Source of the DNA: an uncultured Bacteroidia bacterium
Lineage (GTDB): Bacteria; Bacteroidota; Bacteroidia; Bacteroidales; ML635J-15
Length of the DNA: 34,811 nt
Direction of reading: 5' to 3'
Assembly: GCA_902762455.1 (NCBI GenBank)
Contig: CACWOG010000005.1
Location: 1 to 34,811, forward strand
The notes under the pieces: model-generated
The model's input: only the letters and a program-made list of their open reading frames with translations
Database searches by the model: none
What the model was told of the DNA's origin: nothing
Made by a program: the position numbers and the translations under genes
In this document: one piece after another, positions 22,696-29,763 of the stretch
Numbering within the stretch: position 1 is the stretch's first letter
Layout of the letters: every line of letters begins with the position of its first letter

Positions 22696-23907
22696 ATGAC
22701 AGAAAAAAAAGGTCCAACTGAGATTTTGGTAAAATATGACTTGCCACAAGGATGGGAAAACGAAACAAAGTTTTCGTTCGAGCATCTTTCCGAGTTGGTG
22801 TCAAAAATTCATAATTCGGCTTTCACGGCTACAATGAAGGCCGTAAATCGGTTTGCTACGATAAGGAATTATGTCATAGGCTTCTATATTGTGGAGTACG
22901 AACAACACGGAAGTGACCGAGCAAAATATGGTGACAGGTTGCTGAAACGATTGGCTGAGAAAGTGGACAAACGAGGCATTAATGAAACGCTTTTGCAGAA
23001 TTGTCGTCGTTTCTATTCGTTATATCCACAAATACAAAGTTATTTGATAGAACAGAAATATGCGACAGCGTCGCAGAAATCAATTTATGCGACGCCGTCG
23101 CATATTTCTTTGCAAATTGGTGCGATAACATCGCACCAATCTGTAAAAAGTCCGATGCTGACGGACAAATTTACGACTCCCGCAGAAAAAATCATTTCCC
23201 AGTTATCTTTTTCACACATAAGAGAAATAATGACTGAGGAAGACCCGCTCGCACGCTTCTTTTATGAAACGGAGTGTATCAAATGTTGTTGGAGTGTTAA
23301 GGAACTACGCAGGCAGATTTCAACCAATCTGTATTTTAGGGCGGGAGTAAGTGAAAAGCCGGAACTGCTTCTGGCGAATACGCAAATCAATAGGGAACCT
23401 GCGTTGACAATAAATGAACCGTTTTCATTGGAATTCCTAGGTTTGCGTCCCGAAGCATTTACTGAAAATGATTTAGAAAACGCACTGATAACGCATTTGC
23501 AAGATTTTCTGCTTGAAATGGGAAAAGGTTTTTGTTTTGAGGCACGACAAAAACGGATGATTATAGATGATGAATATTATTTTACCGACCTCGTTTTCTA
23601 CAATCGTGTTCTGCATTGCAATGTCATAGTAGAGCTTAAAGATGATGAGTTCCGTCACTCCGATTTGAGCCAATTGAATGCTTATGTGTCTTATTTTAAG
23701 GAAAATGAGATGAATGAGGGTGATAATCCGCCTGTCGGAATTTTGCTCTGTACGCGAAAAGGAAAGAAAATGGTTGAATATGCTCTCGCAGGTATGGATA
23801 ATCATATTTTTGTTTCCACATATCAGTTATCGCTTCCTGATAAGAAAACTCTTCAGGATTTCTTGTTAAGGGAAACTCAACAAGATTCCATTCCAGACCA
23901 AAAATAA
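22696..23907 (+). CDS. YhcG/DUF1016-type PD-(D/E)XK nuclease
   Basis: 403 residues. The N-terminal DUF1016 region (about 30-200) contains the characteristic IGFYIVEYEQHGSDRAKYGDRLLKRL context and RRFYSLYPQ. The C-terminal nuclease domain (about 235-390) has FCFEARQKRM, YFTDLVFYNRVLHCNVIVELK, with the Asp of FTDL and the ELK forming the PD-(D/E)XK core, and GILLCTRK. Such proteins occur near restriction and defence loci in Bacteroidota; their cellular target is not well defined. The linker at about 120-150 is encoded by three successive small DNA palindromes (23061-23140). The gene is flanked by a 15-bp direct repeat that includes the promoters of this gene and the next one. Confidence 0.88.
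   Translation: MTEKKGPTEILVKYDLPQGWENETKFSFEHLSELVSKIHNSAFTATMKAVNRFATIRNYVIGFYIVEYEQHGSDRAKYGDRLLKRLAEKVDKRGINETLLQNCRRFYSLYPQIQSYLIEQKYATASQKSIYATPSHISLQIGAITSHQSVKSPMLTDKFTTPAEKIISQLSFSHIREIMTEEDPLARFFYETECIKCCWSVKELRRQISTNLYFRAGVSEKPELLLANTQINREPALTINEPFSLEFLGLRPEAFTENDLENALITHLQDFLLEMGKGFCFEARQKRMIIDDEYYFTDLVFYNRVLHCNVIVELKDDEFRHSDLSQLNAYVSYFKENEMNEGDNPPVGILLCTRKGKKMVEYALAGMDNHIFVSTYQLSLPDKKTLQDFLLRETQQDSIPDQK
23061..23140. repeat. Three mini-palindromes inside the YhcG-like gene
   Basis: TGCGAC-AGC-GTCGCA (23061-23075), TATGCGAC-GCC-GTCGCATA (23086-23104) and ATTGGTGCGAT-AAC-ATCGCACCAAT (23116-23140) have perfect arms and 3-base loops. They encode ATASQ, ATPSH and AITSH, so the protein shows a degenerate repeat. 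The arms differ between copies while pairing is kept. Confidence 0.9.
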
Positions 23908-25647: not shown

Positions 25648-25975
25648 AAAACAGCGTTGATTACGACATAAAGATGGTATCCAACAGGTTAGTGTCATTA
25701 ACCAGTTCAAATTTGAAGCCATCGATGGCAAGATTCCATTGATGCAGAGTGCGTTCAGGCACTTGCCTTTATGAAGGGAATCAACAATTTATATTATTAT
25801 GAGCAAGAGGAATAAAAGGGAAATGGAATAGCATTAAATGACTGGAATGGCATTGTATTAAGGACAAAGTGGATTATGACAAAACAAAGTATCTGTAATT
25901 AATAAAGATTATATAGCGATACTAACGGATGATAGTCTTTGTATAGGAGAAGATTGGAAAATAAAATGTAATAAT
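25648..25975. other. 328-base gap at the border of the AT-rich island
   Basis: No full gene, RNA or terminator is seen. Short open pieces (for example reading FEAIDGKIPLMQSAFRHLPL near 25713-25772) end at stops and look like decayed coding DNA. The last 96 bases are open in the frame of the next gene (…YIAILTDDSLCIGEDWKIK) but offer no start codon. Base composition falls from the nadA level to the AT-rich level of the following cluster across this gap, which suggests a junction of acquired DNA. Confidence 0.45.
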
Positions 25976-26902
25976 ATGACAACAGAATCAAAATCACCAA
26001 TAGACAATTTATTTTCTCAATTAATGGGTTATATACCAGATAAAGCTGGGCAGGCTTTTGAAATCATATCATCAGCTGTATTATCTATTGTCCTGAATAA
26101 AGATGGAAAACTAAATCAATACATAGAAGGTCTAAGTGGTAGTAGATATCAATTGGACGGTATAATAGATTCATCTCTAATGGTTGAAGCGAAGGATTAT
26201 ACCCATAGTAATGCAAAAGTTGGTCGTGGAGACTTGCAAAAAATGCAAGGTGCTCTAACCGATTTACCTGATATTACAAAAGGTCTATTTACATCAGCCA
26301 CAAACTATACAAGAGAAGCAATACGATATGCTGAAGGTAGCGAAACGAATAGACGGCAAAAAAAGATTGTTCCTGTAACCATTCGCCCAATTAAAGACGA
26401 AGATGAAACTGGTCGAGTAAAAAAAATTATTATAAATATAAATTCTGTATATCCTGATTTTCAAAAAGGAAGATACACTGTTATTTTTTCTGAAGGAGAA
26501 GAGGAAAGACTTAACAAAATGATTTCCCAAGAGGATAAAAATATTAGCGAAAAAACAATCTCCTATCGTATTGACAAATTTTATGACGACCATTTTAATA
26601 TTATGTACACTCTCCATGATTTGCTATCTACCCAATATCCACAATATTCGTATGACGATACAAGTATTAATACATGTTTTTTTATTGATGCTTTCATTAT
26701 AATACAAGATAAGCCATATAAAATAAATGGTATTAAATTTGAGGATGTCCCAATTGTTAAAGATAATATCTCCTTTTCAATCACACCAAATGGAAACGCA
26801 ACAATTCTTGTCGAATCAAATAAGTTAGGAATAAACAAATTAATAACAGATACTGATTTAAAAGCAGCTATAAATAGATTATATCCCAAAAACGGAAACT
26901 GA
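25976..26902 (+). CDS. Mrr-like restriction endonuclease domain protein
   Basis: 308 residues. The N-terminal 125 residues have the Mrr-type PD-(D/E)XK core: GQAFEIISSAVLSIVL (25-40), YQLDGIID with Asp61, LMVEAKDY with Glu71-x-Lys73, then DLQKMQGAL with Gln88 and KGLFTSATNYTREAIRYA. All catalytic positions are kept. The remaining 180 residues are not recognised and may recognise target or partner. The gene is visibly AT-rich and heads three genes in the same direction. Mrr-family enzymes cut DNA, often modified or foreign DNA, so an anti-phage or restriction role is the natural inference, not shown. Confidence 0.8.
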   Translation: MTTESKSPIDNLFSQLMGYIPDKAGQAFEIISSAVLSIVLNKDGKLNQYIEGLSGSRYQLDGIIDSSLMVEAKDYTHSNAKVGRGDLQKMQGALTDLPDITKGLFTSATNYTREAIRYAEGSETNRRQKKIVPVTIRPIKDEDETGRVKKIIININSVYPDFQKGRYTVIFSEGEEERLNKMISQEDKNISEKTISYRIDKFYDDHFNIMYTLHDLLSTQYPQYSYDDTSINTCFFIDAFIIIQDKPYKINGIKFEDVPIVKDNISFSITPNGNATILVESNKLGINKLITDTDLKAAINRLYPKNGN

Positions 26903-26943
26903 CCTTGCTGTTGGTAAAGAGGGAAAAGTAAATAGAATATATT

Positions 26944-28074
26944 ATGATGTCACTTAGAGATTTCTTTGAATACGAAAAAGAAGCAATAGGCTTACTAAAA
27001 GAAAATATCAAAAAGAATAACGATGAAACAATCAAAACTCATTATCCATTTGAGTACTTTGATTGTTTGTATAACTTTGACTTGGTGCTACTAAAAGGAA
27101 ATATATTAAAAGATATATATATAATCAAAACGCAATCATCAATTTACTCAAATTATAATTTCATAAAATCTCTACTAGAAAAATACAAGAAAATAACAAA
27201 TGCCGATGTACATGTTGCTTATATAGATAATGATAAAAAACTGCAAATTAAAGGAATAGATAATTTCACCAAAAACAACACGAAACAAAATATCCAAACA
27301 ATAAAAACATTTACAGATTTTTATAATGAGATTAAAAATAATTGCAATGTATTTTATGATGGTCAATATTTTTTTAGAGGACACTCTATGGATAGTTTCA
27401 AACCGATTCCAAGCATATTCAGAGATGATAATATAAAACACGAAAGCCAAATGTATCACGAAGCAATACGAAAAATGCCATTCGAATTCACAGAGGATAT
27501 GAGTACATTTGACAAACTAGTAAAAATGCAACATTATGAATTGCCGACTCGTTTGCTTGATATTACGACCAATCCATTGGTAGCTTTGTTCTTCGCTTGC
27601 AAAGAGAATGAAAATGAAGATGGAGAGGTGCTGATTTATCCAATTATGAATGAACAAATCAAATACTATGACAGTGATTCTGTGTGTATATTGTCCAATT
27701 TAGCGAAACTTTCTACAAATTTTATATTCAGTAAAGACAAAGATTATTTAGTCTATGACATAAAACAAGATAAAGCTAGTTTTAATGGGAAGTATTTGAA
27801 ATCAGAGGATACCAAAAAAGTTTTTTGTGTAATGCCAAAACTAAACAATGAAAGAATTGTTCGTCAACAAGGAGCATTTTTTATCTTTGGAATGGGGGCG
27901 TCAAAAGACAAGCCAGCTACCTTTTACGATCAACCAATAAAAATACGAATAAATGCAAAGAGTAAAAAAGACATATTAAAAGACCTTCGGATTCTAGGTG
28001 TTAACGAAGCTACATTATTCCCCGAGACTAACAAAATATTAAAGCAGATAAAAGTGGAATTAAGTGGGAAATAA
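26944..28074 (+). CDS. FRG-domain protein
   Basis: 376 residues from the ATG at 26944 (a second ATG follows directly). The N-terminal 130 residues are lysine-rich and unrecognised (with ILKDIYIIKTQSS). The FRG domain covers about 140-280: YFFRGHSMDSFKPIPSIFR, KMQHYELPTRLLDITTNP and ALFFACKEN. FRG domains, named for a conserved Phe-Arg-Gly, are found in many phage-defence-associated proteins; the biochemical activity is not settled. It lies 41 nt after the Mrr-like gene with the same AT-rich composition, so they are probably one transcription unit. Confidence 0.82.
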   Translation: MMSLRDFFEYEKEAIGLLKENIKKNNDETIKTHYPFEYFDCLYNFDLVLLKGNILKDIYIIKTQSSIYSNYNFIKSLLEKYKKITNADVHVAYIDNDKKLQIKGIDNFTKNNTKQNIQTIKTFTDFYNEIKNNCNVFYDGQYFFRGHSMDSFKPIPSIFRDDNIKHESQMYHEAIRKMPFEFTEDMSTFDKLVKMQHYELPTRLLDITTNPLVALFFACKENENEDGEVLIYPIMNEQIKYYDSDSVCILSNLAKLSTNFIFSKDKDYLVYDIKQDKASFNGKYLKSEDTKKVFCVMPKLNNERIVRQQGAFFIFGMGASKDKPATFYDQPIKIRINAKSKKDILKDLRILGVNEATLFPETNKILKQIKVELSGK

Positions 28075-28096
28075 ACAAATTTACAATCATTATTAT

Positions 28097-28110
28097 TGCG
28101 AAGATAGGAA
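28097..28110 (-). promoter_or_regulatory. Inverted third copy of the 14-mer TTCCTATCTTCGCA
   Basis: On the minus strand this matches the first 14 bases of the repeats at 22658 and 23908, including the box TATCTTCG. If active it would transcribe antisense to the FRG gene. It may instead be the scar of a rearrangement. Confidence 0.4.
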
Positions 28111-28127
28111 ACTGGACAAATATTGTT

Positions 28128-29096
28128 ATGACTAAATATATTAACAATAATAAAACAGAACGAATAGGAGTTCATAAGGTAGCATTAATTCTATCCGAAA
28201 TGGGATTTATATTTAGAGAAACGTCAAATTCAGATACAGGTGTTGACGGACAAATAGAAGAAATAGACGATAAATATAATGCTACTGGACGCATTATGGC
28301 TGTTCAAATAAAATCAGGAAGTTCATATTTGTATGACAACGGAAATAAGTGGAAATTTTATGTTGATGAAGCACATAAAAACTATTGGAGATTGTTCCCT
28401 ATCCCAGTAATGCTATTAATACATAATTCTAACGATGGAAATGTTTATTTCATAGATGCTAAGTATGTCTTAAATGCAACAGGGAATATTGATATTCCTA
28501 AAAAAAATGTACTATGCGAAGAAAATAAAGAGGAGTTCTTAAAAACAATAGGTGGCAGTTTAAAATATAGCGATATAGAAAGTGTTTTTCTATATATGCT
28601 CAAAAAAAGGAGTTATGACATATCTTTCCCTGTTTCATTTTTGGAATTATTTATTTCTGGCCTCACAAACCTGTGCAATGACCTATTCTTCGACGTGTCA
28701 CTTAGTACCGATATTGCTGAGGTAAATTGTGAACTTTCTGGAACATCTATAGATCATGAATTTTTATGGGAATACATTAAATTTATCGTAAAAGAGAATC
28801 TTGCAGAAATAAATTTTCATGCTTGTCTGAATAGCTATGAAGAAAGAGAGATACAACCTAGATTTATAGCACCTTTAACATTTAGGGGAAAACAATTATT
28901 GGATTATATTACTCAATTAGAAAAACAGCATTTAGACGAATGTGATATTTCTATAGTTTGTGAAAGTTTTGTGAGACTTCATTTCGACTACTATTCTGAG
29001 AAAAGATTGAAAAGATTAACTAAATTACAGTCATTGCTATTGGCTAAGATGGAAAAAAAAGAAAAGAATTTACATACCCGTCCTGCTCAGAAATAA
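28128..29096 (+). CDS. DUF4365 domain protein (PD-(D/E)XK-like)
   Basis: 322 residues. The N-terminal 150 residues match the DUF4365 pattern: an N-terminal helix (GVHKVALILSEMGFIFRE), TGVDGQIEEID with the acidic ligand Asp, MAVQIKSGSSY with Gln-x-Lys, WRLFPIPVMLLIHN and VYFIDAKYV. This is a nuclease-like fold often found in defence genes. The C-terminal half, with several Cys and an EKRLKRLTKLQSLL helix, is not recognised. It is third in the AT-rich cluster, 53 nt after the FRG gene, with an inverted promoter-like repeat in between. No terminator is obvious after it. Confidence 0.8.
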   Translation: MTKYINNNKTERIGVHKVALILSEMGFIFRETSNSDTGVDGQIEEIDDKYNATGRIMAVQIKSGSSYLYDNGNKWKFYVDEAHKNYWRLFPIPVMLLIHNSNDGNVYFIDAKYVLNATGNIDIPKKNVLCEENKEEFLKTIGGSLKYSDIESVFLYMLKKRSYDISFPVSFLELFISGLTNLCNDLFFDVSLSTDIAEVNCELSGTSIDHEFLWEYIKFIVKENLAEINFHACLNSYEEREIQPRFIAPLTFRGKQLLDYITQLEKQHLDECDISIVCESFVRLHFDYYSEKRLKRLTKLQSLLLAKMEKKEKNLHTRPAQK

Positions 29097-29415
29097 ACAT
29101 CAGAAACAATCCAACCTTTGCAAAATTATAATTACACCTTACCGTATTTACCCCGAATCGGTCATCAAAAGGTTATTTTGCTAGGCCATACCTGCAACCG
29201 ACTGACTCATAAGTTATTACAAGTACATTTTTCTAATGGCGGTCATTTGAAAAAAATGAATTGTAAATGCATGTATAATAATTGTTTACAAGGATAATTA
29301 TAACTTTCTATATTTTTTTTACGACCGATTTGGGTTTAAACTATATGTGAAATAGTTTCTTACTTTTTTCCAAAACATTTTCCTCTTATTCATATATAGG
29401 TATTAAAAAAATCTT

Positions 29416-29423
29416 TATATTTG
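29416..29423 (+). promoter_or_regulatory. -7 box in front of the small RNA candidate
   Basis: TATATTTG fits TAnnTTTG; transcription would begin at about 29428-29430, right at the first stem of the RNA. The -33 region is AT-only and not a clear match. Confidence 0.5.
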
Positions 29424-29427
29424 TCCC

Positions 29428-29585
29428 GTCAAATGGCAGTTGCTGTTTGACAGACATATTTGATTAACGATGATTCGCGCTATAGCGTGGATTGTTGTAT
29501 CTACATCTTTCTCTTAAGGTAATTCTCACAACCTCTGTCAAAAGAAGTGGTATATCAGTGCCACGCTTCTTTTGTGTGTTTTATT
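29428..29585 (+). ncRNA. Structured small RNA with its own promoter and terminator
   Basis: About 150 nt with no convincing reading frame. From 5': GUCAAA (29428-29433) pairs with UUUGAC (29446-29451). A 16-bp hairpin at 29467-29498 centred on CGCUAUAGCG contains five G-U pairs and no mismatch; on the other strand those pairs would be broken, so the RNA is + strand. UUUGACAGA (29446-29454) can alternatively pair with UCUGUCAAA (29534-29542), closing the whole structure and excluding the first stem. A terminator hairpin follows. It could be a free small RNA (a 6S-type fold is one idea) or a leader. I cannot name its family. Confidence 0.55.
29540..29585 (+). terminator. Rho-independent terminator of the small RNA
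   Basis: AAAAGAA-GTGG (29540-29550) pairs with CCAC-(GC)-TTCTTTT (29561-29573), with a two-base bulge and a 10-base loop, followed by GTGTGTTTTATT. Its first three bases overlap the UCUGUCAAA strand of the closing helix, so the two structures partly compete. Confidence 0.65.
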
Positions 29586-29639
29586 GCCCGTTTGGTGCTG
29601 TCGGGTGCAAAAATAACTAACAAAACCGTCCACAGATGG

Positions 29640-29700
29640 CTCTTGACACAACAAAAATAATCTTGACACAACTTGAACCATTTTGGTACAACTTGAACGA
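29640..29700. repeat. Direct repeats upstream of the lipoprotein operon
   Basis: TCTTGACACAAC occurs twice (29640-29651 and 29660-29671) and ACAACTTGAAC twice (29668-29678 and 29688-29698), in a regular array ending about 20 nt before the -7 box. The spacing is typical of tandem operator sites for an activator or repressor. Together with the small RNA it fills most of the otherwise gene-free stretch 29097-29763. Confidence 0.6.
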
Positions 29701-29721
29701 ACCGAGTGTATATTAAGGACT

Positions 29722-29729
29722 TATCTTTG
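29722..29729 (+). promoter_or_regulatory. -7 box of the lipoprotein/zinc-ribbon operon
   Basis: TATCTTTG, a full TAnnTTTG match, 34 nt before the ATG at 29764. The -33 position is a poor match, which fits a promoter that needs an activator binding at the direct repeats upstream. Confidence 0.6.
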
Positions 29730-29763
29730 CGAAATATTTATTAATAATTAAATTTTAAAGAAT

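Follow-up and report, generated by a model that had tools for sequence, protein, structure and literature searches.

Three adjoining genes of an uncultured Bacteroidia bacterium, encoding an Mrr_cat nuclease, an FRG-domain protein and a DUF4365 nuclease-like protein, are probably a small acquired defense cluster of three separate effector genes and not one three-part machine. Because the trio was never found together in any other sequence searched, these anti-virus genes probably lie side by side by chance and are separate from one another; each of the three families occurs without the others, in varied surroundings. The DNA analyzed, hereafter the window, spans the whole of contig C5, 34,811 nucleotides. 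Its relevant features are listed in Table 1.

Table 1. Position of the three genes, their domains and the neighboring gene remnant in the window.
Feature	Position	Strand	Basis
Fic-domain gene remnant	25670..25841	+	two out-of-frame pieces of a BRO-N-like/Fic gene, internal deletion between them
Mrr-like PD-(D/E)XK restriction nuclease, 308 aa	25976..26902	+	Pfam Mrr_cat, seven-sequence alignment
Mrr catalytic region (D61, E71, K73)	26156-26338	+	Mrr_cat match and alignment
FRG-domain protein, 376 aa (PADLOC PDC-S15)	26944..28074	+	Pfam FRG, PADLOC
FRG-protein N-terminal domain (residues 1-113)	26944..27282	+	low-confidence model; possible PD-(D/E)XK-like fold
C-terminal FRG region (residues 139-347), ADP-ribosyltransferase-like	27358..27984	+	structure model, literature
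DUF4365 PD-(D/E)XK nuclease-like protein, 322 aa	28128..29096	+	Pfam DUF4365, PDB 9qbp
DUF4365 domain (D40, Q60, K62)	28158-28538	+	Pfam

Organization and composition of the three genes

The preliminary description had placed an Mrr-type nuclease gene, an FRG gene and a DUF4365 gene in a row, and all three are present there as intact ORFs on the plus strand, each with a Pfam match above the cut-off. Its assignment of the trio to defense-type families is likewise borne out by the Pfam matches to Mrr_cat, FRG and DUF4365 and by the placement of the FRG protein in PADLOC PDC-S15. The genes are separated by gaps of only 41 bases (Mrr to FRG) and 53 bases (FRG to DUF4365), and the region has a G+C content of 30.2%, relative to 44.0% in positions 1-25647 of the window. 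Low G+C, including that at third codon positions, is common to all three genes, and the base counts given earlier (15 G+C in the 60 bases from 27001, 34 in the 60 bases from 25141) are exact. Upstream of the three genes, Bacteroidetes-type promoter motifs scored no better than in shuffled sequence.

The Mrr-like nuclease

With the Mrr-type (type IV-like) restriction endonucleases, the first protein shares an Mrr_cat domain (PF04471; E 2.7e-6, 27.9 bits against a cut-off of 21) that carries the D and E-x-K motifs. D61, E71, A72 and K73 are the same in all seven full-length sequences aligned, so the catalytic residues are intact, as had been claimed, and the invariance of D61 and E71-x-K73 predicts that the protein is probably an active nuclease. 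E. coli Mrr has an N-terminal winged-helix domain, Mrr_N. The window protein differs from Mrr-type endonucleases in that its catalytic domain lies near the N-terminus, and in the 190 or so residues that come after it Pfam recognizes nothing (residues 102-308 carry no domain); Mrr_cat is the protein's sole Pfam match at E up to 1. Because Mrr_N is absent and the motif starts at residue 61, we classify it from its sequence as an Mrr_cat-containing protein, not Mrr proper, and since Mrr_N was not found, target recognition presumably resides in the C-terminal half.

This subfamily is rare and scattered, with members in Niallia, Paenibacillus, Pseudoalteromonas, Salinivibrio, a deltaproteobacterial draft genome and one viral contig, where they lie near a type I restriction-modification operon or other restriction genes, or are solitary. 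None was found in 393 genomes of the order or in phages. In the genome-contig collection, exact peptide patterns of Mrr as the only query retrieved nothing, and a three-sequence profile recovered four relatives.

The FRG protein and its N-terminal domain

On its own, the FRG gene is an already catalogued defense candidate, PADLOC PDC-S15 (E 2.8e-84), and its Pfam FRG match is equally clear (E 1.8e-19, 70.9 bits against a cut-off of 25). Proteins of PDC-S15 are phage-defense candidates that are still uncharacterized (PMC12482510), and the FRG domain has been assigned to the ADP-ribosyltransferase superfamily, with NADase activity in immunity suggested (PMC9503650). Seven residues of the FRG region (R145, G146, Q196, H197, T202, R203 and D206, forming RG, QH, TR and D motifs) are invariant across 37 sequences. 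The AlphaFold2 model of this region is mostly confident, with blocks mainly near 90, and compares at Z 6.1 with the Rhs toxin TreTu and at Z 4-5 with known ADP-ribosyltransferase toxins, all below the Z 8 guide; Foldseek with the same model returned nothing significant (best E 0.15 in PDB and 0.013 in BFVD). Relatives of the FRG protein are encoded after a dynamin-like GTPase, beside Fic, and on plasmids and prophages. The dynamin-like GTPase is a recurrent FRG neighbor, upstream and on the same strand in two genomes of the order (L038:5088-8339 and L039:4631-8581), and is absent from the window.

The one unusual feature of the protein is its N-terminal domain. The FRG region of the window protein matches the PDC-S15 model, whereas residues 1-113 are additional and lie outside the best model. 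Relatives align mostly from about residue 107 on, other FRG proteins have different N-termini, and residues 1 to about 110 have no sequence relatives in the collections searched. An apparent match of one viral locus (L115) to residues 7-349 fails for the N-terminal domain, the BLASTP alignment starting at residue 117. The only Pfam hit to the domain is DUF7088, which at E 0.041 does not reach the cut-off. Its AlphaFold2 model is of low confidence (block pLDDT about 30-77), and the structural matches to this poor model, at Z 4-6.5, are mostly to PD-(D/E)XK or tRNA-endonuclease folds, including Hjc resolvases (Z up to 6.5), activated SPARDA (Z 5.4), RecU and tRNA splicing endonucleases. The fold is a lead only, because values of Z below 8 can reflect merely a common arrangement of elements. 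D46 and K62 are present, and I60 stands at the place of the catalytic acid. As modeled, the domain that precedes the ADP-ribosyltransferase-like FRG domain thus weakly resembles a PD-(D/E)XK fold without its catalytic acid. It is no recognizable duplicate of the DUF4365 or Mrr neighbor, since profile comparison gave either a probability below 1%. We regard as very doubtful a composite locus in which the FRG toxin would be triggered by a fused, dead PD-(D/E)XK DNA sensor while the flanking active nucleases cooperate with it as a unit.

The DUF4365 protein

The third protein matches Pfam DUF4365 (E 8.2e-23) and PDB 9qbp (E 5.7e-10), and its D40 and Q60-x-K62 are kept in relatives. Q60 and K62 correspond to Q62 and K64 of TmuRE, whose replacement in the TmuRE DUF4365 domain yields an inactive mutant; once active on target recognition, the TmuRE short-Argonaute complex degrades DNA non-specifically (PMC10810196). 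In PADLOC, the closest match to the domain is the nuclease portion of short-Argonaute effectors, and a DUF4365 nuclease domain with Q-x-K is common to the window protein and the SPARDA / DREN-APAZ short Argonaute systems (PDB 9qbp, 9jsb). Unlike SPARDA, however, the window protein has no APAZ match in its C-terminal half, and no Argonaute gene lies beside it, the neighbors being the FRG gene and a lipoprotein-like gene without a Pfam match. Membership in SPARDA is ruled out on these two grounds.

PADLOC and PDB matches of the protein end near residue 110-140, and residues 137-322 have no Pfam match. The structure model is poor (mean pLDDT 40) and was left out of comparisons. Full-length relatives, at 32-43% identity, occur on plasmids, on phage contigs and in one genome of the class, with neither of the other two families beside them. 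The surroundings of DUF4365 relatives are instead the inside of a type III-like restriction-modification locus, or a neighboring HEPN gene, and some relatives stand alone.

Do the three families co-occur?

Linkage was assessed by applying profiles of the three families to every locus retrieved. The search for further trios covered 393 genomes of the order (all three families), 335 genomes of the phylum (FRG and DUF4365), the genome-contig collection (Mrr only), plasmids, phages and viral contigs. It yielded 276 loci, with those of the window's own genome excluded and overlapping loci not collapsed, so that some redundancy remains; FRG was present in 196, DUF4365 in 40 and Mrr in seven. With so few Mrr relatives, linkage is weakly tested from the Mrr side, and the queries do not reach remote subfamilies.

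No trio was found in these 276 loci, nor any locus with Mrr beside FRG or DUF4365. A first round, comprising loci of the order, plasmids and Mrr relatives, gave no pair outside the window genome, and a second, with viral contigs added, gave none either. The preliminary description had put forward the trio as a candidate three-gene system that would fail if the genes never occurred together elsewhere; they do not in any of the collections searched, a clear negative for this trio within that scope. No paper describing the trio was found in a literature search that left most subscription journals outside.

The same pattern appears when whole genomes are compared. Among 392 other genomes of the order, FRG occurs in 10 and DUF4365 in seven, with no overlap; among 334 others of the phylum, the counts are nine and four, again with none. 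For unlinked families, zero overlap is expected in most such samples (P 0.83 for the order and 0.90 for the phylum), and the lack of overlap is therefore no proof of avoidance. Were the system obligate, by comparison, most of the 11 DUF4365 genes would have FRG as a neighbor, and none does.

These counts bear most directly on the reading in which the trio is a genuine but very rare or lineage-specific system expressed from one promoter, its nucleases attacking DNA and its FRG protein providing a last-resort abortive step. The single strand, the short gaps, the uniform low G+C and the possible nuclease-type fold in all three proteins speak for such a system, and the operon-like packing and shared composition count against three separate effectors. 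We nevertheless consider it unlikely, for no second trio exists in any collection searched, none of the 11 other DUF4365 genomes has an FRG match and none of the 19 FRG genomes has a DUF4365 match.

The sole two-family locus of the 276 is MT837109.1, a 7.7-kb fecal scaffold deposited as phage, which encodes DUF4365 and then FRG, both of remote subfamilies, on one strand 0.6 kb apart and without Mrr. This arrangement counts against the separate-effector reading, and it would fit a functional pair of a nuclease and an ADP-ribosyltransferase-type toxin to which Mrr is a mere neighbor. It is, however, a single case among 196 FRG loci, its gene order is reversed, its FRG protein lacks the N-terminal domain, identities are only 31-35%, and no other sampled genome has both families; we judge such a pair quite improbable.

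On the same scaffold (L190:423-7311), an MBL-fold-like gene, a protease/TPR-like gene, DUF4365 and FRG stand in a row on one strand, possibly a defense locus of another kind.

Acquisition or rearrangement of the segment

Comparison with 11 close relatives, whose nadA is 96-99% identical, places the three genes in a segment that, judged by sequence, has been acquired or rearranged. The GGGP-synthase/nadA block (23.9-25.65 kb) aligns in all 11, and some upstream genes do so in part of them, yet nothing in any of the 11 aligns with the trio. In eight, asd directly follows nadA; the other three end at a contig end or differ. In the window genome, asd follows an unrelated ORF close to the end of a different contig (C10), and the nadA-asd junction is therefore split. 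Together with the G+C difference and the Fic remnant described below, the broken junction upholds the earlier proposal of acquisition.

The gap before the Mrr gene, described earlier as decayed DNA, is indeed decayed and holds what is left of a Fic-domain gene, a neighbor of defense type that one relative has in intact form. Its 328 bases contain two pieces of the gene, with the middle missing and the frame lost, at 75% and 89% identity to the intact gene of a same-genus genome (G022, L054:6728-7603, minus strand), where the matching pieces are 546 bases apart. That gene has a Pfam Fic match at E 6.3e-12 and a Bro-N match below the cut-off, and the C-terminus is preserved in the remnant as MKGINNLYYYEQEE*. 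In G022, two Fic-type ORFs, one of them the match to the remnant, flank a type I methyltransferase-like ORF (L054:3706-7603).

The remnant directly upstream, the AT-rich segment and the fact that plasmids and prophages carry relatives of FRG and DUF4365 would also suit genes without present function, carried as cargo or decaying as relics of a mobile element. Against this, all three ORFs are full-length with conserved active-site residues, and no transposase or integrase was recognized adjoining the trio; we consider a relic very improbable. It is more improbable still, to the point of being scarcely credible, that the sequence was misassembled after nadA and the trio comes from another organism. 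The genome is a draft of 354 contigs, 80% complete, and synteny breaks right after nadA; but the Fic remnant on one side of the trio matches a same-genus gene, and 29152-29745 on the other contains repeats found throughout the genus and elsewhere in the window genome. These two matches assign the DNA flanking the trio on either side to the genus.

A YhcG-like nuclease had been noted 2 kb upstream. The gene is present (22696-23907, YhcG_C 6.3e-52) and belongs with the YhcG / DUF1016 nucleases (PADLOC PDC-S02), but it stands before the GGGP-synthase gene and is not contiguous with the trio: two housekeeping genes, the GGGP-synthase-like gene and nadA, lie between them. A YhcG/DUF1016 gene is absent at the corresponding place in G022.

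Repeats around the segment

Just downstream of the trio, positions 29465-29605 hold a dispersed, unnamed RNA-like element without an Rfam match, located upstream of a run of lipoprotein-like genes. Twenty copies were found in 13 genomes of the genus, seven of them in the window genome, with a mean column identity of 66%. The element has three main hairpins, with four pairs showing compensatory changes, and the window copy has an MFE z of -4.0. Two neighboring pieces, 29152-29341 and 29371-29470, likewise recur within the genus. Separately, the 12-mer CCTATCTTCGCA precedes the YhcG and GGGP-synthase genes and recurs inverted at 28097-28108, between FRG and DUF4365.

Predicted roles and implications

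Under the favored reading of three separate effectors, the activity and the anti-phage function of each gene are predicted. The Mrr-like protein would cut incoming DNA alone, in the manner of solitary type IV-like restriction nucleases. In the FRG protein, the N-terminal 110 or so residues, possibly a dead nuclease-type fold, may sense DNA or a phage product, upon which the FRG domain would consume NAD+ or modify a target and the infected cell would be stopped. The DUF4365 protein would act as a stand-alone PD-(D/E)XK DNase, its C-terminal half giving targeting or control.

Overall, neighboring defense families in an acquired island need not form a system. Should the FRG protein sense DNA through a dead nuclease fold at its N-terminus, this would hint at what triggers the uncharacterized FRG (PDC-S15) proteins.
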